Assembly (NCBI GenBank): GCA_012729725.1
Contig: JAAYCO010000108.1
Span: 1-46,414 of the forward strand
Direction of reading: 5' to 3'
DNA length: 46,414 nt
DNA from: Planctomycetota bacterium
GTDB taxonomy: Bacteria; Planctomycetota; Phycisphaerae; SM23-33
In this document: one piece after another, positions 7,359-46,414 of the stretch
Numbering within the stretch: position 1 is the first letter of the stretch
Layout: every line of letters begins with the position of its first letter
Made by a program: the position numbers and the translations under genes
The notes under the pieces: model-generated
Database searches by the model: none
Told to the model about the DNA's origin: nothing
What the model saw: the letters and a program-made list of their open reading frames with translations, nothing else

Positions 7359-7390
7359 TCCTGGTTGCTGATGAGACTGGAGAATATGAG

Positions 7391-8218: not shown

Positions 8219-8319
8219 GCGGATTCCCCCCGCGGGCAAAGCCCGGAAGTTTAAGCTTGACCATAGTGTATAATGCCCGTGCCGTGAATGGATGAAGTTG
8301 TGCGTCGAAGGAGCGATTC

Positions 8320-8595
8320 ATGCGACTGGCATTGGTGATAGTCTGCCTGACTTCCATTGCCGTCGGCCTGGTGCAGATACGCCGCTCGCGCGGTCACGTC
8401 AGAAATGAAGTTCTTCGAATGCAGACACGGCAGATACACATGCGCCGCGAGCTTATCGACCAGCAGACCGAGTTGGGCAAGCGAATGACCCCCGCTGAGA
8501 TTCGCATGCGCAGGGAACAGATGCTCTTGCCGCTGGTGGACATGGCGCCTTCGGGGCGCGATGCGGGTTCTTCCAACCGGCACGTGGGCAGGTAG
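8320..8595 (+). CDS. ftsL: FtsL-like small bitopic division protein
   Basis: 91 residues: a membrane segment at 2-20 (RLALVIVCLTSIAVGLVQI), then a basic stretch and a charged heptad-like helix to about residue 70, predicted as a coiled coil. Sequence identity to known FtsL is not obvious, which is normal for this fast-changing family. Size, single membrane segment, coiled coil and location immediately before ftsI (5 bp gap) match FtsL, which with FtsB and FtsQ activates FtsW/FtsI. No separate ftsB is seen nearby. GGAG about 10 bp before the ATG supports the start. Confidence 0.65.
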   Translation: MRLALVIVCLTSIAVGLVQIRRSRGHVRNEVLRMQTRQIHMRRELIDQQTELGKRMTPAEIRMRREQMLLPLVDMAPSGRDAGSSNRHVGR

Positions 8596-8600
8596 CAGTC

Positions 8601-10343
8601 ATGCACAAGCAAGGTATCAAAGCCTGGAAGCACAGCCTGGTGTTCATCCTGCTTATTCTCTGCATTGGAGGCCTGGCGGTTCGTCATTACCTGCTCGTTC
8701 GCAAAGACGGACAGATGCTTGGCGAATTGGCTCGGCGTCAGCAGCAAATGACCATCATCGATCCCGGCAGGCCCGGTGGCATATTTATCGCCAGCGGCAG
8801 AAGCTGCACGCCCATCGCCATCAGTCGGCAGGCGCCGCTATGCTTCGTTGATCCATCTCTTGCGCCGGCCGATCAACTGGATGAGATCTGCCGAAAGCTT
8901 GGCGGCATATTGGGCAAAGAGGCTCACGAACTGCGAGGGGCGATAACGAGGCGGCCCAACAGCAGATTCGTCGTCCTGGCCAAACAGATATCCGGCGAGC
9001 AGGCCAAGGCGGTCAAAGCGCTGAATCTGCAATGCGTGGGCGTGGTTCATGAGTGGCGACGAGAGTATCCAGCAAATGAGCTTTGCGCGACCGTGGTGGG
9101 TTTTCCACCGGCGCCGGGTGTGGCCAACACCGGCGCGGGAATCGAGCTGACGTACAAGGATCTGCTGGCGGCCAAAGACGGCATGATGCTAAGCCTGACC
9201 GACGCCATTCGCCGGCCTGTCGAACCGCTTGACGACAGGCGAGTGCTGCCCGAGGATGGCTCGAACATCGTGCTGTACATTGACGCTCCGGTTCAGGAGG
9301 CGCTTGAGAAGGCTCTGGCGGCGGCTGTTGAAAAACACCAGGCCCAGTGGGCGAATGGGATAGTCGTTGATCCAAAAACCGGCGCAATAGTCGCCATGGC
9401 TTCGGCGCCGAGTTTCAACCCCGCGGATTACAGCTCCGCCACCCCTGCCAACCGAACAAACCGCGCGATCACCGTGCCGTACGAGCCCGGAAGCGTCGCC
9501 AAGCCGATATTCGCAGCCGCCGCCGTAGAAGCCGGCATCGTAACCTACGAAACCAAGATCTTCTGTGAGAACGGAACATACGTCATGCCTCGCGCGGGGC
9601 GAGTCAGCGATCACGGCGAAGCCCACGGATGGCTGACGGTGAGAGACGGCATCGTCTTCTCAAGCAACATATGCATGGCCAAGATCGGGCAGATGACGGG
9701 CAATGAACGCCTGTATGAAATTGCAACAAGTTTCGGCCTGGGCAGAAAATCCGGCATCGATCTGCCCGGCGAGGACGCCGGCATTGTGCGGGATCTGCAC
9801 AAGTGGAACACCTACAGCACGCCGCGAGTTCCTTTCGGCCAGGAAGTTTCAACCACATCACTTCAGCTCGTAATGGCGTTCTCCGCGCTGGTGAATGGCG
9901 GGGAATTGCTGCAACCTCGCGTGGTGAACCGCGTGTTGGATTCGCAGCAGCGCGTTGTCTGGCAGAGCGAGCGGACGGTTGTGCGGCGGGTCATCAGCGA
10001 GGGCGTTTCCGCCCAGACTCGCAGCGTGCTGGCGGATGTGGTTGAAAGAGGCACGGGCAAGATGGCCAGGATGAATCGCTGGACGAGCTTCGGCAAGACC
10101 GGCACCGCGCAGGTTCCCGGCCCAAGGGGTTACGAACCCGGCGCGTACACGGGCAGCTTCATCGGCGGCTCGCCGGTAGGGGAACCTCGCGTCGTGTGCC
10201 TCATTTCGGTGTTTAAGCCCAAGCGCGCAGGTTACTATGGCAGCACTGTCGCAGCGCCGTATGTAAAGGACGTGCTGGAGCAGGCGATGGTTTATTACAA
10301 CGTTCCGCCGGACCGGCCCGAGGGCCAGGAGCGGCGACGGTGA
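8601..10343 (+). CDS. ftsI: Septal class B penicillin-binding protein FtsI (PBP3-like transpeptidase)
   Basis: 580 residues: a short cytoplasmic tail, one membrane segment (about 11-33), a pedestal/dimerisation domain (about 50-220) and a transpeptidase domain. The active-site motifs are all present: SVAK with nucleophile Ser298, the S-x-N motif SSN at 354-356, and KTG at 499-501 in FGKTGTAQVPG. It cross-links nascent peptidoglycan at the septum in partnership with the SEDS glycosyltransferase FtsW, also encoded in this cluster. The pedestal is short and divergent. The start follows the ftsL-like stop by 5 bp. Confidence 0.93.
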   Translation: MHKQGIKAWKHSLVFILLILCIGGLAVRHYLLVRKDGQMLGELARRQQQMTIIDPGRPGGIFIASGRSCTPIAISRQAPLCFVDPSLAPADQLDEICRKLGGILGKEAHELRGAITRRPNSRFVVLAKQISGEQAKAVKALNLQCVGVVHEWRREYPANELCATVVGFPPAPGVANTGAGIELTYKDLLAAKDGMMLSLTDAIRRPVEPLDDRRVLPEDGSNIVLYIDAPVQEALEKALAAAVEKHQAQWANGIVVDPKTGAIVAMASAPSFNPADYSSATPANRTNRAITVPYEPGSVAKPIFAAAAVEAGIVTYETKIFCENGTYVMPRAGRVSDHGEAHGWLTVRDGIVFSSNICMAKIGQMTGNERLYEIATSFGLGRKSGIDLPGEDAGIVRDLHKWNTYSTPRVPFGQEVSTTSLQLVMAFSALVNGGELLQPRVVNRVLDSQQRVVWQSERTVVRRVISEGVSAQTRSVLADVVERGTGKMARMNRWTSFGKTGTAQVPGPRGYEPGAYTGSFIGGSPVGEPRVVCLISVFKPKRAGYYGSTVAAPYVKDVLEQAMVYYNVPPDRPEGQERRR

Positions 10344-10355
10344 AGCAGGAACAGC

Positions 10356-11825
10356 ATGTTATTCTCTGAACTTCTGGAGGCTTCCGGGGCGCCGGTCAAA
10401 TCGCGTCGTGGCGAAGCAGCCGTCGAAGGCGTCGCGCTCGACAGCAGGCAGTGCCGCAAAGGCTCGTGCATGATCGCCGCGAAGGGTGAAACAACCGACG
10501 GCCACGCCTTCATTCGCCAGGCGGTGGCGGCCGGGGCTTCGGCGATTATCTGTCAGGACGATTCGCTTACAGACCCCGATGTTGCGTGCGCGGTGCTTGA
10601 CGACACTCGCGCATGGGCGGGGCCCATCGCGCAGGCGTTCCACGGTTGGCCTTCAAGACGGCTGACCACAATCGGCATAACCGGAACCAAGGGCAAAAGC
10701 ACAACCGCGTACATTCTGCGATCTATTCTCACGCACGTGGGGCGCAAGGCGGCGGTTCTTGGCACGATCGAGTACAACACTGGCGGCAGATCGATCCCCG
10801 CGCCGAACACCACGCCCGACGGCGTTCAACTGGCGTCGTTGTGCGCAGAATCGCTCAACGCCGGGTGCACTCATCTGGTGATGGAAGTCTCGTCGCACGC
10901 GCTGGACCAGCATCGAGTCGCGGGCATGGAGTTCAACGTCGGCGTGTTCACCAACCTCAGCGGCGACCACATGGACTACCACAAGAACGCCGACGCCTAT
11001 TTCGCAGCCAAGCGCAAGCTCTTCGAGGGGCTTTCGCCGTCGTCTGTGGGAGTTATCAACGTTGATGACGACCGGGCCGCTTCGCTTGTGCGTGCAGTCT
11101 GCGGCAGAGTCATCACGTACGGCATTCGCGGCCAGTGCGACTTGCGAGCCCAGATAGAACGCATCGATTCATCCGGTATGCGTATGGCGTTGTGCATGCA
11201 GGGGGAGCGGCGCGTGATTCGCACTTCGCTGCTGGGCACGCACAATGCGTACAACTGCCTCGCGGCCGCAGGGGCCGCCGTTGCACTGGGGCTTGGGTTC
11301 GAGGCTGTCGCCGAAGCCCTCGAGCAGGACATCAAGGTTCCAGGCAGGCTTGAATCGGTCGAGACCCATGCGGGATTCAGGGTTCTTGTCGATTACGCCC
11401 ACACGGACGATTCGCTTCGCAACGTGCTGTCGCTGACGCGTGAGTTGTGCGCCAAGGGCAGGATTATCGTGGTCTTCGGCTGCGGCGGCGACAGAGACAG
11501 GACCAAGCGGCCAAGGATGGCTCGCGTTGCCGAAGAGCTGGCCGACGTGCTCGTGGTCACATCCGACAATCCCCGCACCGAATCGCCGCAGTCGATAATC
11601 GACGAGGTCGTCGGCGGTTTCACGCCCCAGGGACGGAGAAAAGCGATAGTGGAGATCGACCGTCGCAGCGCCATCGCCCTTGCCGTTAACGAGGCTCGCG
11701 AAGGCGACATTGTTTTGATCGCGGGCAAAGGCCACGAGACATACCAGATCATCGGCGCCGCCAGAGAGCATTTCGATGATCGCGAGGTTGCCGCCCAGGC
11801 CGTTGCCGCCAGGGAGGGCGTATGA
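10356..11825 (+). CDS. murE: UDP-MurNAc-tripeptide synthetase MurE, probably meso-diaminopimelate adding
   Basis: 489 residues. This Mur ligase adds the third amino acid of the stem peptide to UDP-MurNAc-L-Ala-D-Glu using ATP. The ATP loop GITGTKGKSTT lies near residue 107, NTTPDG and the DHMDYH segment follow, and the C-terminal domain contains SDNPRTE with DNPR at 404-407. DNPR is the pocket motif of enzymes that choose meso-diaminopimelate rather than lysine, so the wall is expected to be of the A1-gamma type. The stop overlaps the murF start by 4 bp (ATGA), implying translational coupling. Confidence 0.95.
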   Translation: MLFSELLEASGAPVKSRRGEAAVEGVALDSRQCRKGSCMIAAKGETTDGHAFIRQAVAAGASAIICQDDSLTDPDVACAVLDDTRAWAGPIAQAFHGWPSRRLTTIGITGTKGKSTTAYILRSILTHVGRKAAVLGTIEYNTGGRSIPAPNTTPDGVQLASLCAESLNAGCTHLVMEVSSHALDQHRVAGMEFNVGVFTNLSGDHMDYHKNADAYFAAKRKLFEGLSPSSVGVINVDDDRAASLVRAVCGRVITYGIRGQCDLRAQIERIDSSGMRMALCMQGERRVIRTSLLGTHNAYNCLAAAGAAVALGLGFEAVAEALEQDIKVPGRLESVETHAGFRVLVDYAHTDDSLRNVLSLTRELCAKGRIIVVFGCGGDRDRTKRPRMARVAEELADVLVVTSDNPRTESPQSIIDEVVGGFTPQGRRKAIVEIDRRSAIALAVNEAREGDIVLIAGKGHETYQIIGAAREHFDDREVAAQAVAAREGV

Positions 11826-13219
11826 AGCATCTTTCCATGGATGAAATCGCCAAGGCGATAGGCGGGCGTTGGCTGGGATGCCGCCAGGCCGGGTCCATCG
11901 CCGGCGTGACGACGGACACTCGCAAGGCCAAGGCCGGCCAGTTGTTCATCGCGCTTCGCGGGCAGCGATACGACGGGCACGATTACTTGCAGCAGGCAGC
12001 CCGCGCGGGGTGCTGCGCTGCGATCGTCGATCATGCGGCCGCGATTGATCCCCAAATTCTCGCCGGATTTTCGCTGGGCGTGCTGGCAGTGGCGGACACC
12101 ACCGAGGGACTCGGGGCGCTGGCGTCGTTCTACCGCAACCAGATTGCCGCGACGGTCATTGCGGTAACCGGCTCCAACGGCAAGACGACCGTCAAGCGGA
12201 TGATCCACCACATATTGAGCCGCCGGCTCAAAGGCTCGTGCAGCCCCAAGAGTTTCAATAACAACATCGGCCTGCCCTTGACGCTGCTGGAAGTTGGGGG
12301 GCAGGACGATTACGTTGTGTGCGAGGCCGGCACTAACGCTCCTAACGAAATCGCGGCGCTTGGCAAGATATGCCGCCCCGAACTGGCGGTCATAACCACC
12401 ATAGGCCCGTCGCATCTGGAGAAGCTGATCGACCTTCAGGGCGTCGCCGCAGAGAAGGCGTCGCTGCTGGACTATCTTCAGGACGGCGGGGCCGCCGTTG
12501 TGCCCTCCGGCTGCGTCGAACTGGAAAAGGTTCTGCGATGCCGTTCGTGCAACATCATCAGATTCGGCTTAAACGCGGACAGCAACCTGCGCCTTGGCAA
12601 TTATCAGCCCGATGGCGTTGGCTGCCGCTTTGTGGTCAACGGCAAGGTTAACGTCACACTGCCCCTGCCCGGCAAGCACAACGCGACGAACGCTCTTGCC
12701 GCAATGGCGGCGGCGATGCGGCTGGGAATGCAGATGGAAGAGGCAGGCGCTGCCCTTGCCGATTTCACCGGCGCCGAGATGCGGCTGGCGCTCACGCCGA
12801 TCGGAAGCATCACCGTCATAGACGACACGTACAACGCCAACCCCGCCAGCATGGCGGCGGCAGCGGCGGTTCTGGCAGAGAAAGACGCCGCACGGCGAGT
12901 GATGATCATCGGCGATATGCTGGAACTTGGCCCCCAGAAGGAGTTGCTCCACCGCCAGACTGCTCATCGCATAGTCGAGGCAGGCATTGATCTGCTGCTG
13001 GGCGTTGGGGCGATGTCGCGCCTTGCCGTTGAAGAGGCGAAGCAACTGGGTGCGGATGCGCACGCGTTCGAATCGGTGGAAAAGGCCGGCGAGGCAATCA
13101 CAGATCTGCTGCGCGACGGCGATCTGGTTCTGATCAAGGGTTCAAGATCTATGGGCATGGAAAGGCTTATCGAGGCGATCCGCCGAAAATTCGAGCCGTG
13201 CGGAGGCCCTCGGAAATGA
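11822..13219 (+). CDS. murF: UDP-MurNAc-tripeptide:D-Ala-D-Ala ligase MurF
   Basis: 465 residues. Adds D-Ala-D-Ala to complete the UDP-MurNAc-pentapeptide. The ATP loop is VTGSNGKTTVKRM (about residues 114-126); SFNNNIGLPLTLLE and the later VIDDTYNANPASM are MurF signatures. The N-terminal domain (GVTTDTRKAKAGQLFIALRG) is the nucleotide-binding domain of the family. It overlaps murE and mraY by 4 bp each through ATGA junctions, so the three are probably translated in series. Confidence 0.95.
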   Translation: MKHLSMDEIAKAIGGRWLGCRQAGSIAGVTTDTRKAKAGQLFIALRGQRYDGHDYLQQAARAGCCAAIVDHAAAIDPQILAGFSLGVLAVADTTEGLGALASFYRNQIAATVIAVTGSNGKTTVKRMIHHILSRRLKGSCSPKSFNNNIGLPLTLLEVGGQDDYVVCEAGTNAPNEIAALGKICRPELAVITTIGPSHLEKLIDLQGVAAEKASLLDYLQDGGAAVVPSGCVELEKVLRCRSCNIIRFGLNADSNLRLGNYQPDGVGCRFVVNGKVNVTLPLPGKHNATNALAAMAAAMRLGMQMEEAGAALADFTGAEMRLALTPIGSITVIDDTYNANPASMAAAAAVLAEKDAARRVMIIGDMLELGPQKELLHRQTAHRIVEAGIDLLLGVGAMSRLAVEEAKQLGADAHAFESVEKAGEAITDLLRDGDLVLIKGSRSMGMERLIEAIRRKFEPCGGPRK

Positions 13220-14361
13220 TACTCTTTCTGCTGGATCTGTTTGATGTTGAAGGCAAGCACCTGCTTCTGCGGATGGCGGGTGCAGCCTTGCTCAGTTTTC
13301 TGCTGGTCATAGCGCTCGGTCCAAGGATGATCAGGTATCTTCTTCGCCGCAAGATCGGCGATCGGCCGGAATTCGACCACGCAGACCTCAACGATCTCAC
13401 CAGGCACAAGTCGAACACGCCCACGATGGGCGGCGCGCTTATAGTTATCGCCATCATGGCGAGCATACTGGTTTTTGGCGACGTGTTCGGCCCCAACGGA
13501 AACATGTACGTCCGTATGTCACTGCTGGCGCTGGTGTGGCTTGGCGCTTTGGGCGGCATTGACGACTGGCTCAAGCTCAACAAGGCTGCCGGCAAGTCCT
13601 CGCGCGACGGGCTCAAAAGCTGGGAGAAGATGCTCTTCCAGCTTGGCCTTGCGGTTCTGCTTGGTCTTTACACTTACCGCTACGGCAGCCAAAGCGACAT
13701 AGACGGCACGAATCCCGCTCATAATCTTTACATTCCGTTTTGGGCGGGATACATCGTGCTCTCGCAACTGGCGTACACGGTAATCACGGTGTTGACCATG
13801 GTGGGCTTCTCGAACGCGGTCAATCTTACCGACGGGATGGACGGCCTCGCCGGCGGATGCGTGATCATTGTGACCTTCGTTCTGCTGGTGCTGGCCGAGC
13901 TTGTGGGGGTCGTCAGTTACAGCCAGTTATTCAACCTGCCACTGGTGTACGGCAGCGTTGAAATGACGATTGTGTGCACGTCGATGATAGGGGCCTGCCT
14001 TGGCTTTCTGTGGTACAACGCGCACCCCGCGCAGGTGTTCATGGGCGATACCGGCTCGCTTCCGCTGGGCGGTTTGATAGGTTACACGGCGGTGGTGACA
14101 AGGCAGGAGCTTCTGCTTCTGATCGCGGGCGGCGTTTTCATAATGGAAGCCGGCAGTGTGATGCTTCAGGTCGGGTACTTCAAGATGACTCGTCCCGCCA
14201 AGGGCATGAAGGGCAGAAAGATATTTCGCTGCGCGCCGCTGCACCACCATTTTCACCTGGGCGGCTGGGCCGAGACGAAGGTGGTGACGCGCTTCTGGCT
14301 GCTGGGAATCGTGTTTGCGGCGTTGGCTCTTGCCAGTTTGAAACTTCGCCTCGGCGGCTGA
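13216..14361 (+). CDS. mraY: Phospho-MurNAc-pentapeptide transferase MraY
   Basis: 381 residues from the ATG at 13216, which overlaps the murF stop (ATGA) and follows GGAGG at a suitable distance. A GTG 18 bp upstream is a less likely start. MraY is a polytopic inner-membrane enzyme that transfers phospho-MurNAc-pentapeptide to undecaprenyl phosphate, making lipid I. Its hallmark motifs are present: the paired aspartates in GGIDDWLKL, NAVNLTDGMDGLAGG, NAHPAQVFMGDTGSLPLGG and the histidine-rich PLHHHFHLGGW near the C-terminus. About ten membrane segments are expected. In most dcw clusters murD comes next; here it is absent and ftsW follows. Confidence 0.96.
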   Translation: MILFLLDLFDVEGKHLLLRMAGAALLSFLLVIALGPRMIRYLLRRKIGDRPEFDHADLNDLTRHKSNTPTMGGALIVIAIMASILVFGDVFGPNGNMYVRMSLLALVWLGALGGIDDWLKLNKAAGKSSRDGLKSWEKMLFQLGLAVLLGLYTYRYGSQSDIDGTNPAHNLYIPFWAGYIVLSQLAYTVITVLTMVGFSNAVNLTDGMDGLAGGCVIIVTFVLLVLAELVGVVSYSQLFNLPLVYGSVEMTIVCTSMIGACLGFLWYNAHPAQVFMGDTGSLPLGGLIGYTAVVTRQELLLLIAGGVFIMEAGSVMLQVGYFKMTRPAKGMKGRKIFRCAPLHHHFHLGGWAETKVVTRFWLLGIVFAALALASLKLRLGG

Positions 14362-14385
14362 CGCCTGTGCGGCAAAGGTGGACCT

Positions 14386-15564
14386 ATGAATCCAGTTAAC
14401 GATGACGGCCTTGACAGCGGCGCTTCGCAACGCGCCGGTCAGGGACTGCTGATTGCCACGCTGGGACTTCTGGGCCTGGGCGTCGTGATGGTCCACAGCG
14501 CCGCTGCGTCCGTCGCGCAGGGCGGCGAGTGGTACGCGCGCGTGGACGTTCGGCACACGTTCTTCGCCATTGCCGCCGCTGCCGTGCTGATGACGGTCTG
14601 GCGTCTTGATTTTCACTGGTTTTTCTGTTCGGGCAAACGGCCCGTCAAGGCGGCGGTGTTGCTGGCGCTTGCGCTGGGTCTGGGGCTTCTGGTTTTTGTG
14701 CCCGGAGTCGGGCATTCCGTCGGCGGATTCTACAGGTGGATACGCCTGGGACCGGCGAAGTACCAGGTTAGCTTTCAGCCCTCGGAGCTCATAAAGCTGG
14801 CGCTGGTGATCTTCCTGGCGGCCTGGCTGACAAGGCCGCAGGTCAACACCAGGTCTTTTCTGAAGACGTTCATGCCGGCGATGTTGCTTATCGCGGCGTG
14901 CATGGCGTTGATTATCTCGCAGGACTTCGGCACGTCGATGCTTATCGCCGCTGCCGCGGGCATGACGCTCTTCCTGGCGGGAGTGCCCTGGCCTTATCTT
15001 GGCGGGCTTGTGGCGACCGCCGGGTTGGGCTTCTACTGCTTTGTGTTCCTCAACCCCTACCGCTGGAGCAGAATCGAGGCGATGTTCGACCCGTGGAGCC
15101 AGAACAACCAGGCTGCGTATCAGGCCCGCATGTCGCTGACCGCTATCGGCAGGGGGGGATGGTATGGGCAGGGGCTGGGCAAAGGCATAGTCAAGCAGGG
15201 CTTTTTGCCCGAAGACACGACGGACTTTCTGGTGTCCGCCTTCTGCGAGGAATGGGGCTTTCGCGGCCACCTGTTGCTGATGGGCATGGTGGTAGTGTGG
15301 ACGATTCTCGCATGGCGACTGGCGCTCAAAGCGCCGACGGCGTTCGGCAAGGTGGTGTCGGGGTCGCTGGCGTTCATGATCGTGCTTCAGATGCTTCTGC
15401 ACATCGGCGTGAACCTGGTGGTTTTGCCGACGAAGGGAATTGGTTTCCCGTTCATGTCGGCGGGCGGCACATCGCTGATAATCATGGCGGCGGCGACGGC
15501 GATAATCGTATCCGTCAGCAGGTCGCCTTCGGATGGGCGTCGATCCTTAATTGAGATGAACTAG
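14386..15564 (+). CDS. ftsW: SEDS peptidoglycan glycosyltransferase FtsW
   Basis: 392 residues with about ten membrane segments. It belongs to the SEDS (shape, elongation, division, sporulation) family that polymerises lipid II and works with a class B PBP. Family marks include FQPSELIKLALVIFLA, the ISQDFGTSMLIAAA loop with its conserved aspartate, and FMSAGGTSLI near the C-terminus. The placement beside murG and in the same cluster as ftsI supports FtsW rather than the elongation paralogue RodA. Ribosome site AAAGGTGG precedes the ATG; the stop is one base before murG. Confidence 0.93.
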   Translation: MNPVNDDGLDSGASQRAGQGLLIATLGLLGLGVVMVHSAAASVAQGGEWYARVDVRHTFFAIAAAAVLMTVWRLDFHWFFCSGKRPVKAAVLLALALGLGLLVFVPGVGHSVGGFYRWIRLGPAKYQVSFQPSELIKLALVIFLAAWLTRPQVNTRSFLKTFMPAMLLIAACMALIISQDFGTSMLIAAAAGMTLFLAGVPWPYLGGLVATAGLGFYCFVFLNPYRWSRIEAMFDPWSQNNQAAYQARMSLTAIGRGGWYGQGLGKGIVKQGFLPEDTTDFLVSAFCEEWGFRGHLLLMGMVVVWTILAWRLALKAPTAFGKVVSGSLAFMIVLQMLLHIGVNLVVLPTKGIGFPFMSAGGTSLIIMAAATAIIVSVSRSPSDGRRSLIEMN

Positions 15565-37168: not shown

Positions 37169-39349
37169 CTAGTTATTTTCAACAAATACCATTTCGTTGG
37201 GGGCGAGGGATAGATTCCTTAGCCATTGGCCGGCATGGTCGTAAATGTCGGTCGTCTGCTGCTCGTTTGTGTTGTTCACTATGCAATAGACGCCCGCGGA
37301 TGGATACCACGCCAGATCGGTGGCGGGATTGGAGCTGTGGCACTTCGTGAATTCCTGTTCCTTCCTGGCGGACCAGAATATCGCCCTCTGCAACAGCCGG
37401 GCGTTGGTCCAGTCGAACGGCAGCGACGAGATGTACACGCCCCTTCCGCCGGAGGTGATTTTGGCGGCGATGTGCACGTGCTTGCCGGAATTATCCAGAA
37501 TGGCTGCGTCCTCATATCGGCTGAACACGTAGCTGTGATCGCTGATCCTTGAACGCCCTTGTTGTGCGTCGGCAAGGATGAAATGCCGCGGTTCGCACTG
37601 CGAGACTGCTTCGGAGATCTGGATCTCTTTGCCTGTCTCAAGGTCTACGCCCAGCACATCGGCAAGCTGGAAAACCCTGCCCTCGTGCTCAGCGGCCGAG
37701 GGGTGGCCTATTCCGATGAATCCGCCACCGTTGTGAACCCACCTGCGAATAGCGGCAACGAGCGCGGGCGTTTTCCAAATGTCGCCGCCCGACCACGCGC
37801 TGCCCATGAATCCTTCGTTTATGATCACGTCGAAATCGTTCAGGCGGGAAGCATCCTTGAGAATCTCGTCGAAGCTGATAAAACCCACCTTCACAGGAAG
37901 CCCCGCGAGGCATTCGGCGATGTTCGTGCCGATGAATTCCATTACATCTTCGCGCCCGGAGTAGAACTTCTCAATCGGGCCGGTCTGCACCATCCACGAA
38001 CGCAGCGAGCCCCATACGTTCAGGACGCCCACTCGTATCGGGGCAGTCCACGCCTCTTTGCCGCCTGTCCGGTCCATGAACGCGCGAAACTCGTCGGTAA
38101 TGCCTGCCAGATGGTTGATGAAGTCCGGAAATTTGGCTGCGAGAGAAAGGTAGCCGCCCCAGCCTATGCGGTCCACCGGCATGCGAAGCAGGGCCCGGCG
38201 GATCTTCATCCAGTTCTTCCGGGATTCCTCAATCGGGTTTGCGCCGGGCTTAAAGACATCAGGAAAGAAGTACGGATAGAACCGCAGTTCACGAACGACG
38301 TTCAGCGGGACATCGCTCACCCGCCTCAGGGCTACGCCGTCCTCGGCAGCCCCGATGATGATGTCCATGCCCATCGAGGCGAACTTGGGATCGAACGGTT
38401 CGGCGCCGATCCAGTGGTCGCCCCAGAACATGGCTGCCTTCTTGCCCGCGGCGTGAATCTTGTCCACGAGATCCTTGCCGAACCTCAGCGCGAACTGCTG
38501 AATGAAGTCCATCCAGTCCAGCATTCTGGATGTCGGCGGAATGTTGGTGTGCGCGTACCGCCCAGCCTGTATGAAGTCCTCGCCGCGAAGCTTGTAGCCC
38601 TTCACTTTCTCGAATTCCCGAAGGGCGGCGGGGGTGACGGCCTCACAGTATCCGCACCAGTCGCGGATGCAGCAACGCTGCCTCTTGTCGCGTATCAGCA
38701 TGAACATGAACGCCAGCGTCGTAAGGCGAACGACGCTTGTGTTCGGATGGCGCTCCAGCCATCCGTCAAAGTAGTGCATCAGATGCTCATACACTTCGGG
38801 TTTGAACGGATCGACGCTCATGACCTTTTCGCCCGTCCACTTGTTGGTGAGGGCGTTGTACATCGACGTGGAATCCCAAATCTGCATCACGAGGAAGTTA
38901 ACCGTGTACTCGTGATAGTCTTGCCCTCTTGTGAGGGTCACGCACCCGTCGGCATAAGTCCAGTCATCGCCGGGGACGACTTCCCCCGTCGTGCGGTCGA
39001 TAACCTCCCACCATAGCTTGGGGTCGTCGTTCTCGTTCAGGCGATACTTGTCGGTGGACCAGTCATTCATCAGCTCGAACTTCAGCGGGCGGCCCGTGAA
39101 GGTCTGCCGCGGCGTCATCAGAAACGCCTGAGGCAGATCCTCGCCGTGCTCCCTTGGCCAGGACTGCTCGGCCCGCACCAGGCAGATGGTCGAATAGACC
39201 GGGAAGCCCATGTCCAGGAGATCCTGCGAAAGCCTGGTGCCGTCGCTGTCACGAATGGCGTCAACGCCCCAGTGCTTAATAAGGTGCTTAATGATCTGCT
39301 CCTGCCCCGACTCCGCCGGCAGTGTTACTCGACCTGATGTCTTGCGCAT
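37169..39349 (-). CDS. GH112 galactosyl-(1,3)-N-acetylhexosamine / galactosyl-rhamnose phosphorylase
   Basis: 726 residues from the ATG at 39349 (AAGGAA upstream). The family opening GRVTLPAESGQE is exact for GH112. A (beta/alpha)8 barrel follows, with FWGDHWIGAEPFDPKF whose Asp311 aligns with the catalytic acid of the bifidobacterial lacto-N-biose phosphorylase. Then comes a Rossmann-like middle domain (VDVIINEGFMGSAWSGG, GGGFIGIGHPSA) and a C-terminal beta domain. GH112 enzymes split beta-galactosides by phosphate to give galactose 1-phosphate. Specificity (N-acetylhexosamine or L-rhamnose acceptor) cannot be decided by eye. No signal peptide: it acts in the cytosol, so a transporter elsewhere is needed. 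It converges with the UroD-like gene. Confidence 0.9.
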   Translation of the reverse strand: MRKTSGRVTLPAESGQEQIIKHLIKHWGVDAIRDSDGTRLSQDLLDMGFPVYSTICLVRAEQSWPREHGEDLPQAFLMTPRQTFTGRPLKFELMNDWSTDKYRLNENDDPKLWWEVIDRTTGEVVPGDDWTYADGCVTLTRGQDYHEYTVNFLVMQIWDSTSMYNALTNKWTGEKVMSVDPFKPEVYEHLMHYFDGWLERHPNTSVVRLTTLAFMFMLIRDKRQRCCIRDWCGYCEAVTPAALREFEKVKGYKLRGEDFIQAGRYAHTNIPPTSRMLDWMDFIQQFALRFGKDLVDKIHAAGKKAAMFWGDHWIGAEPFDPKFASMGMDIIIGAAEDGVALRRVSDVPLNVVRELRFYPYFFPDVFKPGANPIEESRKNWMKIRRALLRMPVDRIGWGGYLSLAAKFPDFINHLAGITDEFRAFMDRTGGKEAWTAPIRVGVLNVWGSLRSWMVQTGPIEKFYSGREDVMEFIGTNIAECLAGLPVKVGFISFDEILKDASRLNDFDVIINEGFMGSAWSGGDIWKTPALVAAIRRWVHNGGGFIGIGHPSAAEHEGRVFQLADVLGVDLETGKEIQISEAVSQCEPRHFILADAQQGRSRISDHSYVFSRYEDAAILDNSGKHVHIAAKITSGGRGVYISSLPFDWTNARLLQRAIFWSARKEQEFTKCHSSNPATDLAWYPSAGVYCIVNNTNEQQTTDIYDHAGQWLRNLSLAPNEMVFVENN

Positions 39350-39739
39350 GTTCTGGTTCCTTATGACGAACAAGGCATCTTAACGCAGAGTGCGGGTTTT
39401 CATCAACACGCCGCCGCATAATGAGAAGAACGACATTTGAGGAAAAACTTCGGCGGGCATTTGCCTTTGGCGGGTCTGAAATCTACCTTTCATCCAGTAC
39501 CCAGCCTGTCACAGGTGAGGATGGGCGAGGTGCGTTTTCCATGGCGGGCGAACCGGCATGGGCGACATAAATCTTTGCGGTGCAAGTCTTTGCGGGCTCT
39601 TGAGGCCCGCCTCAGCGGGATTCGACGGACAACCTGTTCCGTCGGGCCGGCGTTTTGCCATTTTCATGGCTCATTTTTAGTCCATGAAGGTTTCGTCTTA
39701 ATCAAGTGCGCCCGATCCCGCGTCGATATCTCAATTGTG
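39350..39739. other. Gene-free stretch with two strong hairpins
   Basis: No convincing gene is seen. GCGGGC (39592-39597) pairs with GCCCGC (39605-39610). CGACGGA (39623-39629) pairs with TCCGTCG (39638-39644). A T-rich tract (TTTTGCCATTTTCATGG) comes soon after. Together this resembles a tandem terminator or the 3' end of a small RNA on the plus strand, although no plus-strand gene precedes it. Confidence 0.4.
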
Positions 39740-39748
39740 ACACTAGTT

Positions 39749-39994
39749 CAGGAGGCGAACGCTCTACAGCGGTTGTGCTCGGCGTAGCCCGTGTTCCAGG
39801 CTTTCCGTGAGGAGGTGAATCGGAGGATAGCCAAAGCCTGGCTTGCGGCCAGTCGGGGCGACATAGGTGGCGGGTCGATGGCTTCACGTGAAGCAGGCCT
39901 GGAATGTCGAAGCTGATGCGCCATCGCGAGAGGGCAATCCTCCCTAAAGCAGGGATGAACATATATGACACGGAAGCAATTAGTTCCACAAAGG
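39749..39994 (+). promoter_or_regulatory. Structured 5' leader of the pilin operon (candidate riboswitch-like RNA)
   Basis: CCAGGCTTT (39796-39804) pairs perfectly with AAAGCCTGG (39833-39841). The same 39838-39841 bases instead can form CTGGC/GCCAG with 39848-39852. The first arm can also pair with GCCTGG at 39897-39902, giving mutually exclusive folds. Further hairpins are CGCT/AGCG (39750-39761), CGAC/GTCG (39859-39877), the 14-bp palindrome GCTTCACGTGAAGC (39881-39894) and GATG/CATC (39915-39925). It lies immediately before the first pilin gene. The piece CCAAAGCC recalls the c-di-GMP-I (GEMM) core, but the rest of that consensus is not found, so no class is assigned. Confidence 0.45.
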
Positions 39995-40015
39995 CAATTA
40001 CTCAGGAGCATGATA

Positions 40016-40423
40016 ATGAAGAGAACGGCATTCACGCTTGTTGAAATTCTGATAGTGGTCATCATACTGGGCATCTTGGCGGCGATCGTGATACCGCAGT
40101 TCACCCAGGCGTCGAACGACGCACGTGCGGCGGCGTTGGTCAGCGATCTGCAGACTGTTCGCAGTCAGATTGAGTTGTACAAGGTTCAGCACCTTGACAA
40201 TTATCCAGACGCTGACAACATCGTTAACCAGTTGACCATGCGCACCAACGCCGCCGGCGAGACCGGCACAGATGCCGAAACCTATCCTTATGGCCCATAC
40301 CTCCAGGAGTTCCCGACCAATCCGTTCGTCGCCACTGGCGGCAACGAAGTTGGAACCGGCAAGGGCTGGACCTGGGACGGCACGACGTTCGCCCCCGCGG
40401 ATGAGGCTCACAGCGGTCTGTAA
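40016..40423 (+). CDS. Type IV pilin / GspG-like major pseudopilin
   Basis: 135 residues from the ATG at 40016; AGGAG is 7 bases upstream, whereas the ATG at 40010 is too close. Prepilin leader MKRTA is cut before FTLVEILIVV, with Phe at +1 and the conserved Glu at +5. The ~25-residue hydrophobic helix that follows anchors the subunit and then packs in the fibre core. The mature end YPYGPYLQEFPTNPF resembles the calcium-binding/GspG C-terminal signature (WG.PYL...P.DPW). It probably forms the main fibre together with the next gene. Confidence 0.88.
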   Translation: MKRTAFTLVEILIVVIILGILAAIVIPQFTQASNDARAAALVSDLQTVRSQIELYKVQHLDNYPDADNIVNQLTMRTNAAGETGTDAETYPYGPYLQEFPTNPFVATGGNEVGTGKGWTWDGTTFAPADEAHSGL

Positions 40424-40524: not shown

Positions 40525-41028
40525 ATGAAAGGCTCGGCATTTACCCTTGTTGAGGTGCTGGTCGTCGTGATCCTTTTGGGGATTCTGGCTGCGGTTGTCG
40601 TGCCGCAATTCTCCACCGCCACCGCCAATGCTAGGGCAAGCATGTTGCGCGACGATCTTCGCATCATGAGAATGCAGATCGCAGTCTTCACAGAGCAGCA
40701 TCTTGGAATACCGCCCGGCTTCCCACTGGGCAAGATCGAAGACGGCGCAAGCGAACAAGTTTTCATAGATCATATGACGCTTGCCTCAAACATGTACTGC
40801 CAGCTCGCCGATCTGGGCACGGAGGGCTATCCCTATGGGCCTTACATGCGGGAAATGATGACAAATCCGATCAACGACATGGCGACTATTCGCATAATCG
40901 CCGCGAATGAACCTTTGCCAACCGTTGCAGCCGGGACGCATGGATGGATCTATTGTCCTTCCAGGCCGGCGTTTCTTTCCGACGCCGTCGGTTGCGACGA
41001 CACAGGCGTATCCTACATCGAGTATTAA
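40525..41028 (+). CDS. Type IV pilin / GspG-like pseudopilin, second copy
   Basis: 167 residues. Leader MKGSA and mature FTLVEVLVVVILLGILAAVVVPQFS are nearly those of the previous protein, and the GspG-like element recurs as YPYGPYMREMMTNPIND. It is longer by about 30 residues at the C-terminus, where WIYCPSRPAFLSDAVGCDDTG contains two cysteines able to form a disulphide. It is a paralogue of the pilin at 40016 with low identity outside the helix. It follows by 101 bp, in which a hairpin (GGGACCG/CGGTCCC) can form. Confidence 0.87.
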   Translation: MKGSAFTLVEVLVVVILLGILAAVVVPQFSTATANARASMLRDDLRIMRMQIAVFTEQHLGIPPGFPLGKIEDGASEQVFIDHMTLASNMYCQLADLGTEGYPYGPYMREMMTNPINDMATIRIIAANEPLPTVAAGTHGWIYCPSRPAFLSDAVGCDDTGVSYIEY

Positions 41029-41029
41029 C

Positions 41030-41533
41030 ATGAAGCCGCCGCCGACATATACGATCAACAGGAGGGGTTTCACTCTTCTTGAAGCTCTGTTGGCGTCGGT
41101 GCTGCTTGCTTCGGTAATCGTGTCCATAACAACTCCCTTCACGGCGGGCGCCGGGCAGACGCTTCAGGATCGCAAGTCAACCATGGCTGTGGCGCTGGCG
41201 CAGGAAATGATGGAAGAAATACTGTCTATCTGTAATCAGCCCCAGATGACTGTTGATCAGGGTGTCGTGCCCAGGCCGACGTTCACTACGCCCTTGCATT
41301 ACGACAACTACATCGAAAACGACGGCGGCATTCGCAACAGCAGGGGCTCGATCATCACCGACCCGTTGGCAAGCGGACTCAGCCGGCACGTGAATGTTGA
41401 ATACGTCACGGTCGCCAACCAGCGAGCGGAAGATCATCACGCATTCATCAGCATCAGTGTGGTCGTCAAGCAGTACGGTCAGCCCGCGGTTTCTCTAACC
41501 CGGCTGGTCTATACCGGACTGGGGGCCGATTGA
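41030..41533 (+). CDS. Minor pseudopilin, GspI/PilV-like
   Basis: 167 residues from the ATG at 41030, one base past the previous stop. Leader MKPPPTYTINRRG is cut before FTLLEALLASVLLASVIVS, with Glu at +5. VALAQEMMEEIL resembles the 'a..LA...le.l' segment of GspI/PilV. It is presumably part of the tip complex that primes fibre assembly. The stop overlaps the next start by one base. Confidence 0.8.
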   Translation: MKPPPTYTINRRGFTLLEALLASVLLASVIVSITTPFTAGAGQTLQDRKSTMAVALAQEMMEEILSICNQPQMTVDQGVVPRPTFTTPLHYDNYIENDGGIRNSRGSIITDPLASGLSRHVNVEYVTVANQRAEDHHAFISISVVVKQYGQPAVSLTRLVYTGLGAD

Positions 41534-42183
41534 TGAACAAGACTTCGTTCACGCTTACTGAGCTTGTGCTTGGCATGGCGATCACCGCCATGATAGGGCT
41601 TGCCGTGGCCGGGGCTTCGTCGGTTCTTTCAGGCAGCTACTCAAGCGACGTGCAGGCGCACCAGTCGCTGCAAACCGCCAGAATCGCAATGCTAAAGGCC
41701 AATGACGAGCTGCGACGGGCCAAACTTGTCCTTTTCGCCGGCGACAACTACTTCATGATCTGGCGAGAAGGAGACGACGCCGACGATGAAATCAACATCA
41801 GCGAGATCATCACTTTTCGCCATGATGCAAGCCAGAAGAAACTGCTGAGGCACCAGGTAGTTTACCCCCCGAGTCTTCATTCATTCTGGGTCATGCTGCT
41901 GAACTACGAGGTTCCTCTGAACACCCTGATCACGTCGCCGGCGTACTGTCTGTCGTCTTTGCTCAATATGCTGTACTGCCAGACGGCAGTGGTGGCGGAG
42001 GATGTGCAATCCTTCTCGGTGTGGACTAACAATTCGCCGCCTCGGACAGATCATGTTGTGATTGACATCGTCGTCGGCAAAGACAGCGGCTCGTTTCATC
42101 TGCGAAACAGCGCTACGCTTCGCCGGCCCGCAACCGACCAGGTTGGAAGGGCAAACGGAGAATGGGTCCTCTTTGGGGACTAG
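41533..42183 (+). CDS. Minor pseudopilin, GspJ/PilW-like
   Basis: 216 residues from the ATG at 41533, which shares its first base with the previous stop. Leader MNKTS is cut before FTLTELVLGMAITAMIGLAV, again with Glu at +5. The body (LQTARIAMLKANDELRRAKLV, EIITFRHDASQKKLLRHQV, VAEDVQSFSVWTNN) matches the layout of GspJ/PilW: a helix followed by beta strands describing linear data-like repeats. It is probably a tip component. Confidence 0.8.
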   Translation: MNKTSFTLTELVLGMAITAMIGLAVAGASSVLSGSYSSDVQAHQSLQTARIAMLKANDELRRAKLVLFAGDNYFMIWREGDDADDEINISEIITFRHDASQKKLLRHQVVYPPSLHSFWVMLLNYEVPLNTLITSPAYCLSSLLNMLYCQTAVVAEDVQSFSVWTNNSPPRTDHVVIDIVVGKDSGSFHLRNSATLRRPATDQVGRANGEWVLFGD

Positions 42184-42186
42184 CCA

Positions 42187-43290
42187 ATGAAAACACAAGT
42201 CGCACATAACGACGTCGGCAGAAGCGCTTTCGCGCTGATCATGGTGCTTATGCTCGTCGCGGCGGCTTCGGTTCTTGGCATGTGCTGCCTGTGGTCTTCG
42301 TCGATCCGCCTGGCAGGGTCTCAGAATTTCGTGACCGCCGCAAGGGCAAGAATGCTCGCTGAAAGCGGCGTGCAGCACGCGATGTACATTCTTCGCACAG
42401 ATGCGGACGCTCTGCTTGCGGCGGGGGCCAGTAATCCGCTTGGCCCATACCATCTTGATTCGATGGACGACTCTTACTGGTTCTACTGCCTGGGCCAGGG
42501 AGGGGGCTCGACGTTCAGCATAGCCTCGCATTCCGCTTGCGGCGGATTGAACGCGGATGTCAAAGTAACCGCCAGATTGCGAAGCAACTACCGTTCGCTG
42601 CTTGAATCGGCGGGCCCGACGCACTACTGGCGGTTGGGGGAAAGCTCCGGAACCACGTGCAGAGACAGCGCCGGCAGCGCGAACGGATCGTTCATAAACG
42701 GCGTTACGCTTCGCACGGCCGGGGCCATTGTCGGCGACAACGACACGGCGACGACTTACAACGGCAATAATCAGTATGTATCGATTCCCAGCATTAACCC
42801 CTCCGGATCGGCCATGACGATGATGGCCTGGGTGCGGGGCAACAACGTGGATCTGTATGATCGCTGGGTGCTGTCCAAGATATCCGGAGGCAGCGTCAAT
42901 AGGGTCTATTGGGCGCTGGGGGTGCTTGGCACATCAGGCAGCAATCGGCTGGCGTGCAGGGTGAAGACCAGCAATAAGACCACCACGCTTCAGGCGTCGG
43001 TTGCACTTCCGAAACAGGAATGGGTTTTCCTGGCGGCGGTGTACACCGGGCAGCACATCATCCTGTATCAGAACGGCGTCGAGGTGGCCCGAATCGCCGA
43101 GACCGGGTCAATACAAACCTCTTCGGCAAGCACTACCATTGGAAGCACAACGCATCAGCCCACGGGCAATCCATGGAGCGGCGGAATTGACGAAGTGGCC
43201 ATGTTCTTCAAGGCCCTCAGCGCGTCACAGATTGCCGCTCTGTACAACGCCAGAGCTCCCGATGTGGAGATAGTGCGATGGGACGATTGA
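42187..43290 (+). CDS. Minor pilin (PilX/GspK-like) fused to a LamG domain
   Basis: 367 residues. Residues 13-35 (SAFALIMVLMLVAAASVLG) are the hydrophobic N-terminal helix, followed by ARARMLAESGVQHAMYIL, a pattern of PilX/GspK-type minor pilins. About 140-355 is a LamG/concanavalin-like jellyroll: THYWRLGESSGTTCRDSAGSANGSF, YVSIPS, MTMMAWVRG, WVFLAAVYTGQHIILYQNGV and IDEVAMFFKALSASQIAALYNA. LamG domains bind carbohydrates or proteins. The fusion suggests an adhesive or substrate-binding pilus tip. The leader is not a canonical G-F site, so processing needs proof. Confidence 0.82.
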   Translation: MKTQVAHNDVGRSAFALIMVLMLVAAASVLGMCCLWSSSIRLAGSQNFVTAARARMLAESGVQHAMYILRTDADALLAAGASNPLGPYHLDSMDDSYWFYCLGQGGGSTFSIASHSACGGLNADVKVTARLRSNYRSLLESAGPTHYWRLGESSGTTCRDSAGSANGSFINGVTLRTAGAIVGDNDTATTYNGNNQYVSIPSINPSGSAMTMMAWVRGNNVDLYDRWVLSKISGGSVNRVYWALGVLGTSGSNRLACRVKTSNKTTTLQASVALPKQEWVFLAAVYTGQHIILYQNGVEVARIAETGSIQTSSASTTIGSTTHQPTGNPWSGGIDEVAMFFKALSASQIAALYNARAPDVEIVRWDD

Positions 43291-43309: not shown

Positions 43310-43630
43310 ATGAAAACCGAACTCAACACAACCGGGCATACAGGCATTCGCGTCTTGCTGGCCATGAATCTCGCGGTCCTTGCGTTGCTTGCTCTGGTGC
43401 TGGCTGGCCAGCTGTTCAGCGATCCGCTGATGGCCCAGCAGGGCGGCGGGAGCGGCGGCGCGATTGACGGTTTTGGTGGAACGGCAACAAGAGTCGCCCA
43501 ACTGCTTGAACAGCAACAGCAGATGAACCAGAAGCTCGATCAACTGATCAACCTATTCGCAACCGGACAGGCCAAGGTTCAAATCGTGGTGGATTCCGGT
43601 TCTGGAGCATCCAATGTCAAGAAGCCCTGA
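43310..43630 (+). CDS. Unknown membrane protein with C-terminal coiled coil
   Basis: 106 residues. Residues 13-33 (IRVLLAMNLAVLALLALVLAG) are a membrane segment, followed by a glycine-rich stretch (QGGGSGGAIDGFGG) and a glutamine-rich heptad region (RVAQLLEQQQQMNQKLDQLINLF), predicted as a coiled coil. No pilin leader. It overlaps the next gene by 17 bp and is surrounded by pilin-type genes, so an accessory assembly or regulatory role is plausible. No known family recognised. Confidence 0.65.
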   Translation: MKTELNTTGHTGIRVLLAMNLAVLALLALVLAGQLFSDPLMAQQGGGSGGAIDGFGGTATRVAQLLEQQQQMNQKLDQLINLFATGQAKVQIVVDSGSGASNVKKP

Positions 43631-44102
43631 GGCGCGCATCAGTCGGGCGTTCACGCTGGTTGAAATTCTGATGGTGGTGATCATCATGGCCATCGCGGCG
43701 GCCATTGTGATTCCATACTCATCCGCCAGCGGCACCGCGGCCCTGGCGGCGGCAAGGATGATCACAAGCGATCTTCAATACGCCCAGAATGTGGCGATAA
43801 CGACGCAAAAACCAGTAACCGCAACGTTCAGCACAACCACCAATGAATATTCGCTTACCAGCCAAAGTGAGCCGCTAATTCATCCGATTACAAAGGTAGC
43901 GTACACGGTGCGGCTGTCGAACGAGCGTGGAATGTCAGGCGTGCGCATCGAATCGACCACGCTTGGCGCCGCAGGAGCGGTAACCTTCGACGAGTTTGGT
44001 TCTCCAAGCGAGGCATGCATGATTCTCGTCAAGGCGGGCGCTGTCATGTATCGCGTTGAGGTCGCCGCGGCGACAGGCAACATCAAGGTGACGGCTTTGT
44101 AG
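43614..44102 (+). CDS. GspH/FimT-like minor pseudopilin
   Basis: 162 residues. Leader MSRSPEARISRA is cut before FTLVEILMVVIIMAIAAAIVIP. ARMITSDLQYAQNVAITTQKPV is the signature of the GspH/FimT family, where the helix lines the core. The beta-rich rest ends TFDEFGSPSEACMILVKAG, again typical. It presumably joins the fibre or its tip. The start codon lies inside the previous gene, consistent with coupled translation. Confidence 0.85.
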   Translation: MSRSPEARISRAFTLVEILMVVIIMAIAAAIVIPYSSASGTAALAAARMITSDLQYAQNVAITTQKPVTATFSTTTNEYSLTSQSEPLIHPITKVAYTVRLSNERGMSGVRIESTTLGAAGAVTFDEFGSPSEACMILVKAGAVMYRVEVAAATGNIKVTAL

Positions 44103-44115: not shown

Positions 44116-45261
44116 ATGTTCAAATCCCTTTTTCAGAATCGAACCTGGCCCATTGCTCTGGACATCGGAGGCGACAGCATCAAGCTGCTTCAGATGCGCC
44201 AGGCGGGCTCTGTGCTGAAGGTTCATGCTTGCGCCAGATGGCGGTTCTCGGAATCGGACGGCGTTGATCCCCTTCGCAGACGTCAGCAGGCGGTGTCGGT
44301 CATTCCCGAGTTGCTCAGGAGCAACGGGTTTGTCGGCAGGAAGGTGATCACTTCGCTTTCGTGCGAGGATCTGTGCATAAAGAGCATTCGCATGGCTGCA
44401 ATGCCCGACGCCCAGATGCACGCTGAAATAATGCGCGAAGCCGCAAGCCGTTTCGGTTTCGAAATCGCGCGCGACCAGATAGCCTGGCTCAACGCCGGGC
44501 AGGTGCGCCAGGGCGCCGAGGTGCGCAACGAGATTATCCTTCTGGCGGTGAAGCCCCAGGTTATCGCCGACCATCTTTCTCTTCTTTCAAGCGTGGGGCT
44601 CAAGCCTCAGCACATAGACGCCGAGCCAATCGCGCTGTTCAGGGCGTTCGAGCGAATGCTGCGTCGAAAGGCGGACGAACAGGCGGTGACGGTGGTTGTG
44701 GATATTGGCAGCAGGTCCACCAGGGTGATAGTCGCCAGGGGCAGGGAAGTCGTGTTCATCAAGAACATCGACGCCGGCGGCAGAAGGTTCACGCAGACTC
44801 TGGCCCGCCACCTTAACATACCGCACGCCGAGGCTGAGGAGTTGCGGTTGAGGCTCAGGCGTCCAAGTGAGAAGGGCGACGAATCGTCCGGCCGGGGCAG
44901 CGTGGACTGGACGCTCTATGACGCCCTTCGCGCGGAGGTCGAGGGCCTGGGAAGAGAAATCGCCCTGTGCCTGAGATACTGCGCCGTAACCTTCCGCGGC
45001 CTGCGACCCACGAACGTGCTGCTGACCGGAGGCGAGTCATATGATCGCGCTGTGGTGGAACTGCTCGGCGAGCATCTTGGCGTGCCTTGCGTGGTCGCCC
45101 AGCCCTTCAAAGGAATAGACGTCGCCAGCGTCGACTTCGGCGCCGACCGACGAGCCACGCTCTCGGAATGGACTCTGTGCCTCGGGCTGGCTGGCAGATT
45201 CAAAAATCTTAGCGATCCTGTTCAGGAGAATGGCGATGCAACACATAGACTTTCTGCCTGA
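44116..45261 (+). CDS. pilM: PilM-like actin-fold assembly ATPase
   Basis: 381 residues. The actin-like fold is shown by IALDIGGDSIKLLQM at the N-terminus (phosphate 1), VVVDIGSRSTRVIVARG (phosphate 2) and VLLTGGESYDRA (adenosine). PilM is a cytoplasmic protein of the type IV pilus inner-membrane platform that binds the N-terminal tail of PilN. It is followed immediately by pilN- and pilO-like genes, the standard order. Its end overlaps pilN by 26 bp. Ribosome site AAAGGA precedes the ATG. Confidence 0.9.
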   Translation: MFKSLFQNRTWPIALDIGGDSIKLLQMRQAGSVLKVHACARWRFSESDGVDPLRRRQQAVSVIPELLRSNGFVGRKVITSLSCEDLCIKSIRMAAMPDAQMHAEIMREAASRFGFEIARDQIAWLNAGQVRQGAEVRNEIILLAVKPQVIADHLSLLSSVGLKPQHIDAEPIALFRAFERMLRRKADEQAVTVVVDIGSRSTRVIVARGREVVFIKNIDAGGRRFTQTLARHLNIPHAEAEELRLRLRRPSEKGDESSGRGSVDWTLYDALRAEVEGLGREIALCLRYCAVTFRGLRPTNVLLTGGESYDRAVVELLGEHLGVPCVVAQPFKGIDVASVDFGADRRATLSEWTLCLGLAGRFKNLSDPVQENGDATHRLSA

Positions 45262-45856
45262 GCAAATAAAGGCTCATCGGCTTCGCCGGCGAAGGCTTGT
45301 TCAATACTGCTATGTGCTTGTTGTCATCGCCGCCGGGATAGGCTTGTGGGGCTACTCGTGGCGAGGAAGAATCAGCAGGGCCAACGATGAGTTAAAGCGG
45401 CTGGAGCACCAGTGCAATCAGGTTCACATTCAGCTTGCCGGATTGGAGCAGCTTCAACGCCAGCAGGCCCAGTTGCTCATCAAGGAACGAATATCGAACA
45501 CGCTTGGCAGCAGGGTCAACGCGCTTGATCTGCTTGCCGAACTTGAACGGGTTCTGCCCCAGGGCGTTTCTCTGATGAATCTCACCATGGAGGCTGTTCA
45601 GGTTCAGGTGCCAATCGAGACCGCCGCGAACACCAGCTCCAGAACCAGGACCGAAACACAACATTACAGCACGGTCAACCGCGTCAAGTTCACCGTAACG
45701 GCGATCGCGCCGACGGATGTGGACGTCGCGAATTCGATTGCGCAGTTGTCTTCCAGTCCACTTCTGGAGGACATCAACATGGCTTACGCGCGGACGATCA
45801 ACATGGAAGGCAGGCAGGCGAAGGAGTTCCAGGCCGTCTGTCACGTGGCCAGGTAA
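45236..45856 (+). CDS. pilN: PilN-like inner-membrane assembly protein
   Basis: 206 residues from the ATG at 45236, which has AGGAGA 6 bases upstream; the ATG at 45230 is too close to it. The N-terminal HIDFLPEQIK is the PilM-binding tail, corresponding to the 'NLLP' motif. One membrane segment follows at about 24-42, then a coiled coil (about 45-85) and a ferredoxin-like periplasmic domain (AELERVLPQGVSLMNLTMEA). It forms a dimer with PilO that aligns the platform. Confidence 0.87.
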   Translation: MQHIDFLPEQIKAHRLRRRRLVQYCYVLVVIAAGIGLWGYSWRGRISRANDELKRLEHQCNQVHIQLAGLEQLQRQQAQLLIKERISNTLGSRVNALDLLAELERVLPQGVSLMNLTMEAVQVQVPIETAANTSSRTRTETQHYSTVNRVKFTVTAIAPTDVDVANSIAQLSSSPLLEDINMAYARTINMEGRQAKEFQAVCHVAR

Positions 45857-45865
45857 GGAGAGACC

Positions 45866-46396
45866 TTGAACCCCAAAACCAAAGACTTGCTGATCATGAG
45901 CGCTGCCGCCGCGGCAATGATCATCGCGGGCGTGCTGCTTGTTCATATGCCCAACAGCCGAAAACTGGAGGACACCCAGTCGAAGATACTCTCCGCGCGC
46001 GCCTCGCTTGAGGCCCAGACGCTGCAGGCGTCGGTTATCCCCGACATGATGCGGCAAATCGAGCAGATGAAGGTGAAGTACAAAGACTTTGACCGCCGCC
46101 TTCCCAAGCGAAAAGAGCTGGGCGGATTTCTGCGAGACATCAGTGAGAACCTCGGCAGGGAAAACCTGGTGAACCAGTCTTACCAGCCTGGCGCTCCTGT
46201 TCCGCAGGACTTGTTCCACATGCTTCCCATCGAGATGAAGCTGAGGGGGCCGTATCTTTCCCTCGCAAGCTTCCTGCAAAGCATAGATCAGATGGAGCGA
46301 TTGACGCGGGTGCAGAAGCTCAAGATTGTCTCCGACCCGCGGACCAACGAGTTGGACATCACCCTGAACATGAATATCTACTTCACAGAGAGTTGA
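45866..46396 (+). CDS. pilO: PilO-like inner-membrane assembly protein
   Basis: 176 residues, starting with TTG at 45866. AAGGAG 6 bases upstream and the absence of a better ATG support this rare start. A membrane segment lies at about 9-26, a coiled coil at about 30-70, and a ferredoxin-like domain at about 75-170 (KELGGFLRDISENLGRENL, PIEMKLRGPYLSLASFLQSIDQMERLTRVQKLKIVSD). This is the PilO layout, the heterodimer partner of PilN. Confidence 0.87.
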   Translation: MNPKTKDLLIMSAAAAAMIIAGVLLVHMPNSRKLEDTQSKILSARASLEAQTLQASVIPDMMRQIEQMKVKYKDFDRRLPKRKELGGFLRDISENLGRENLVNQSYQPGAPVPQDLFHMLPIEMKLRGPYLSLASFLQSIDQMERLTRVQKLKIVSDPRTNELDITLNMNIYFTES

Positions 46397-46398
46397 AT

Positions 46399-46414
46399 AT
46401 GCCGGCAAACAACA
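46399..46414 (+). CDS. Start of the next gene, cut by the window end
   Basis: ATGCCGGCAAACAACA begins 2 bp after the PilO-like stop and encodes only M-P-A-N-N. GAGAG in the end of the PilO-like gene could be its ribosome site. By gene order it may be PilP- or PilQ-like, but nothing in the five residues shows it. Confidence 0.35.

Follow-up and report, generated by a model that had tools for sequence, protein, structure and literature searches.

What is a LamG jellyroll doing on a pilin-like protein encoded in a filament operon of Phycisphaerae? The question is raised by the gene at 42187-43290 of the window, the whole 46,414-nucleotide stretch of DNA analysed here. An earlier interpretation drawn from the letters of the DNA (the sequence-only reading) had described a GspK-type N-terminus that continues into a full LamG domain. 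The gene is indeed a single uninterrupted reading frame of 367 codons. The Pfam profile Laminin_G_3 (PF13385) matches residues 192-350 with an E-value of 8.1e-25 and 88 bits (cut-off 27.6) and is covered in full (1-151 of 151), and the NCBIfam model of GspK aligns with residues 16-74 (E 1.5e-5). Taken at full length, the GspK model scores 24.7 bits against a curated cut-off of 130 because the match is confined to the N-terminus; the protein has LamG instead of an alpha-domain. As in other modular type IV pilins, the extra domain is not pilus-specific. The parts of the protein are:

42187..43290, plus strand: K-type minor pilin with LamG head, 367 aa (ORF, Pfam, NCBIfam, AlphaFold2)
42187..42228, plus strand: putative class III leader, residues 1-14, Ala-terminated (sequence; predicted cleavage A14|F15)
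42214..42399, plus strand: predicted alpha1 helix, residues 10-71, including the conserved AESG region (AlphaFold2, alignments)
42439..42582, plus strand: predicted pilin beta-sheet strands, residues 85-132 (AlphaFold2)
42589..43257, plus strand: LamG (Laminin_G_3 / ConA-like) module, residues 135-357 (Pfam core 42760-43236, AlphaFold2, Foldseek)
43261..43284, plus strand: predicted last strand, residues 359-366 (AlphaFold2; similar end behind unrelated modules)

Other LamG-pilin fusions, which the sequence-only reading had thought worth looking for in Phycisphaerae, do exist. Both parts occur in one frame and at full length in nine further genomes of the same family and order, at 26-37% identity to the window protein; one of these genomes has two copies, and two additional genomes carry the fusion in frameshifted form. 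Its recurrence in nine further genomes argues that it is neither chance nor an assembly accident.

The gene lies in an operon with the order G-G-I-J-K-H-PilM-N-O, in which a 106-aa gene separates K from H. The letters flanking the bar give the residues around the predicted cleavage site:

39965..40423, plus strand: GspG, major-pilin-like, A|FTLVE (T2SSG and N_methyl in Pfam; GspG E 6e-16 in NCBIfam)
40525..41028, plus strand: second GspG-type pilin, A|FTLVE (Pfam, NCBIfam)
41030..41533, plus strand: I-type minor pilin, PilV/GspI-like, G|FTLLE (Pfam, NCBIfam, position)
41530..42183, plus strand: J-type minor pilin, S|FTLTE (weak N_methyl; precedes K in the surveyed loci)
43310..43630, plus strand: 106-aa membrane-anchored protein, no family (present in many of the operons; overlaps the start of H)
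43614..44102, plus strand: H-type minor pilin, A|FTLVE (GspH in Pfam; ComGD/GspH in NCBIfam)
44116..45261, plus strand: PilM (PilM_2 E 3.7e-25)
45230..45856, plus strand: PilN (E 7e-9)
45866..46396, plus strand: PilO (E 9e-21), the last gene before the contig end

Over its final 127 bases (46288-46414), the window matches without a single difference the beginning of another contig of the genome, C132 (L111), taken in reverse complement. This overlap indicates that the operon runs on into C132, where the secretin and the other machine components are encoded. The genes there follow the order 229-aa protein, secretin, TPR protein, PAS histidine kinase, response regulator, GAF-HD protein, ATPase (C132:11456-12598), PilC-like protein and DnaJ-like protein, and a similar order is found in two relatives. 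A signalling block is thus built into the filament operon: the PAS histidine kinase, the response regulator and the GAF-HD (HD_5) protein are encoded between the secretin gene and the ATPase gene (L111:7520-11044), in relatives as well. A search for PilY1 gave no match, which is uninformative because the controls were likewise empty. The sequence-only picture of a GspK/PilX-type prepilin with a LamG head is borne out by the class III leader, the missing Glu5, the third place in I-J-K and the completeness of the filament operon.

We consider it probable that the window protein is a tip pilin of the ComZ/GspK type with LamG as its receptor head. After export, the K protein would be cut by prepilin peptidase behind Ala14. 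It would then join the I and J minor pilins and start the filament, so that it would end up at the tip; this position is the natural inference. The pilin domain would serve as a carrier that holds an exchangeable head between its penultimate and last strands, as the models suggest. This head would be a ComZ-like beta-solenoid in most Phycisphaerae and LamG in place of the solenoid in the lineage of the window. LamG would act as a tip receptor or adhesin, with glycans as the most likely ligand and proteins as a possible one.

The same operon can be read differently, with K capping a short type II secretion pseudopilus. LamG would then dock or sort secreted proteins, or the substrate bound to them, and would do so at the secretin and not at the cell surface. 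The pilins resemble GspG/H/I/K and not the PilA type, the C132 secretin has a GspD-like N0 domain, and the cluster has a single ATPase gene but lacks a clear PilT. However, separate PilM, PilN and PilO genes are of the type IV pilus kind, and retraction could be provided by other T2SSE genes that the genome carries outside the cluster. The signalling block within the operon also suits a regulated surface filament. We therefore regard the pseudopilus as a rather unlikely alternative, though it is the main one.

How the LamG domain would be held by a tip pilin was examined with AlphaFold2. The model of the window protein has a mean pLDDT of 88.6 and a pTM of 0.78, from a shallow alignment of 17 rows. 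In it, the LamG sandwich spans residues ~135-357 and is followed by one further strand (359-366), so LamG probably interrupts the pilin fold instead of being appended to it. That this strand belongs to the pilin fold is probable because a similar end persists behind unrelated modules. Judged on the predicted secondary structure, the module thus sits between the penultimate and the last pilin strand. This is the insertion point of ComZ and not that of GspK, so that the parallel with GspK drawn by the sequence-only reading is not supported in this respect. The Laminin_G_3 jellyroll fold is evident from the fully covered profile and from Foldseek, whose nearest solved folds to the LamG part include domain 4 of AbnA and PAPP-A. 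The lectin-like domains of clostridial neurotoxins and trans-sialidases resemble it at the fold level only and are uninformative on function. TafC gave a weak NCBIfam match across the LamG part, and a literature search on TafC yielded nothing.

Several known pilins resemble the window protein in part. In the tip pilin ComZ of Thermus thermophilus, a beta-solenoid stands between the penultimate and the last strand, an arrangement that differs from GspK, and ComZ is a DNA receptor with a proposed role in DNA uptake (PMC6561018). The window protein appears to share with ComZ a GspK-like pilin domain, a bulky module at the penultimate/last strand and a proposed tip location. However, it has LamG as its head and is encoded in a Phycisphaerae operon with PilMNO and secretin genes, and nothing indicates DNA binding. 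With GspK and PilX it has in common the N-terminus, the lack of Glu5, the I-J-K order and the presumed function as a cap, but the alpha-domain of GspK lies between strands 3 and 4. A third comparison is PilC of Streptococcus sanguinis, a glycan-binding minor pilin with a lectin module, which has been modelled at the tip (PMC9934059). PilC and the window protein are both minor pilins with a ConA-like lectin module. In PilC, in contrast, the modules are C-terminal and include an Ig-like domain, Glu5 is present, the host is monoderm, and glycan binding has been shown.

To see what other K proteins carry, we compiled a census of 90 distinct K proteins of Phycisphaerae; the residues at -1 and +5 were scored in 88 K proteins. 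A beta-solenoid is the head in 55 of the 90, a solenoid followed by LamG in 14 and LamG alone in 12, while 9 have none. Since two of the latter are frameshifted LamG copies (L072 and L094), there are seven bare pilins, and the LamG-alone type rises to 14 with these two. The bare proteins are 152-195 aa long, lie in the same operon and mostly belong to family f17 (L126, L130, L131, L139, L140, L144 and L153). Where a relative matches in the N-terminus only, its C-terminal part looks like a beta-solenoid and in most cases closes with a similar strand, V-x-V-x-x-W-N/D-D. Wherever the flanks are readable the operon order is kept, with one exception (L039, G029 C373), a second LamG-headed K gene around which no pilin operon was found within 12 kb. 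Across the class, 94 of 198 genomes match the K N-terminal profile at E <= 1e-10, a count that includes some longer unchecked proteins. As relatives swap their heads at one and the same place, the tip of the fibre resembles a socket for interchangeable binding modules.

The solenoid-LamG type has a peculiarity of its own. The motif GLVGHWKLDE, which usually forms the first LamG strand, stands last in nine of these proteins (L076, L078, L079, L083, L084, L086, L087, L093 and L122), as if the LamG that follows the solenoid had undergone circular permutation. A model of one solenoid-LamG protein reached a pLDDT of 78.7. In L094, LamG follows the pilin directly when read through the frameshift and is apparently succeeded by an Ig-like stretch; its source is a Planctomycetota MAG, which the PilM tree places with Sedimentisphaerales.

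Another conceivable filament is a pilus for DNA uptake of the kind suggested for ComZ, in which the head would bind DNA or be a structural cap and LamG would have kept that role. The profile of the solenoid type matches ComZ (6qvi, PMC6561018) weakly, with an E-value of 0.0033 over two collinear segments, and a titin chain scored better. The titin match is spurious, since it scored through repeats; because it outscores ComZ, we use the ComZ match as supporting evidence only. The LamG-type profile reaches ComZ at E 0.24, and the solenoid-LamG profile A5 gave no match at all. A ComEC-type gene is present in the genome, but as 10 of 14 control genomes also have ComEC, this says little. Moreover, seven K proteins have no head, which suggests that capping does not depend on one in those cases, and LamG is not known as a fold that binds DNA. 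Taken together, DNA uptake appears improbable, and a LamG-headed tip receptor remains our preferred interpretation.

This interpretation presupposes that the protein is processed as a prepilin. A leader and a hydrophobic alpha1 are present (A14|FALIMVLMLVAAASVLG; G|F/V in the orthologues), as is typical of modular type IV pilins. The predicted mature protein starts with FALIM and has Met instead of Glu at +5. The K subunit of known systems lacks Glu5. Glu is likewise found at +5 in none of the 88 scored K proteins, while the remaining pilins of the window do have it. At -1, the residue is Gly in 80 of these 88 proteins and Ala in 5. Ala at this position is non-canonical, yet common within its own genome: we counted 24 [A/G]FTLxE motifs with Ala and 17 with Gly (reversed controls: 0 and 1). 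As Ala is commoner than Gly in the pilin-like motifs of the genome, it is likely accepted at -1. A prepilin peptidase gene is encoded elsewhere in the genome. The sequence-only reading had named missing processing and an ordinary membrane anchor as outcomes that would speak against it, and the leader, the peptidase gene and the prevalence of Ala point away from both. A periplasmic LamG protein on an ordinary anchor, unrelated to the fibre, would fit Ala at -1 and the lack of Glu5, but is very improbable given the conserved charged leader and cleavage motif with its prevailing Gly, the GspK model match, the constant place in pilin operons and the predicted pilin fold.

We next consider the origin of the LamG heads. 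On the PilM tree, the distribution of LamG-only heads requires 5 changes, at least 3 of which are forced by well-supported branches. This tree gives the cluster of the window no resolved placement, so that LamG ancestry there rests on the distribution of the cargo. A single origin of LamG-only and solenoid-LamG heads together is rejected on the LamG tree (AU test, p 0.002). For LamG-only heads, a single origin has p 0.0175, or 0.068 with a duplicate row included, on a tree with long branches. Judging from these trees, LamG has entered the K slot at least twice. The solenoid head is probably ancestral because it is spread over most families, and in the lineage of the window it was most likely replaced by LamG. 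Viral contigs were scanned with a single LamG as query, since the LamG alignment was too variable to serve, and returned two weak matches, which do not suggest a link to phages.

Extending the proposal, one may tentatively see the K gene as encoding a socket that is dedicated to cargo and sits at the end of the fibre. In this socket, solenoid, solenoid plus LamG, LamG or nothing would have been swapped across the class within an otherwise constant operon, and LamG would have been captured independently more than once and in two topologies; we hold this with less confidence than the assignment as a tip pilin. If it is true, the socket would change what the fibre binds while the machine stays unchanged.

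As to the ligand, LamG folds are known to bind proteins too. Glycans are favoured here by analogy with PilC of S. sanguinis (PMC9934059) and by the fold match to the domain of the arabinanase AbnA. The conserved LamG positions W148, R149, W215, W279 and E336 look structural, and no ligand site was identifiable among them. The polysaccharide-degrading setting assumed by the sequence-only reading is based on a lacto-N-biose phosphorylase gene, a glycan-use gene that adjoins the operon on the opposite strand (window 37169-39373, minus strand), which is weak evidence.

A LamG pilin by itself is of a known kind: PF13385 pilins, which share the class III signal peptide and Laminin_G_3 with the window protein, are among the 15 most frequent modular architectures (Raynaud 2021, PMC8179133). 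The survey counts proteins, and one syntenic slot with alternative heads is not described in the text consulted (PMC8179133). Our literature search, with most subscription journals outside its range, likewise yielded no account of a conserved tip gene that carries alternative heads. What appears to be new is the conserved slot with interchangeable heads. Modular pilins have so far been known singly; here, one syntenic tip gene can be traced across a whole class and offers a natural series of head replacements. This series makes it possible to test whether the binding partners of a type IV filament are determined by the head of its tip pilin. It also hints at what the filaments do in a large, little-cultivated group.

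Two further observations concern other genes of this genome. The window also contains a peptidoglycan/division cluster (6456-15564) with MraW, a transpeptidase, two Mur ligases and FtsW/RodA. Elsewhere in the genome, LamG proteins with PEP-CTERM-like ends stand beside single pseudopilin-type genes (L155, L156, L157 and L158).
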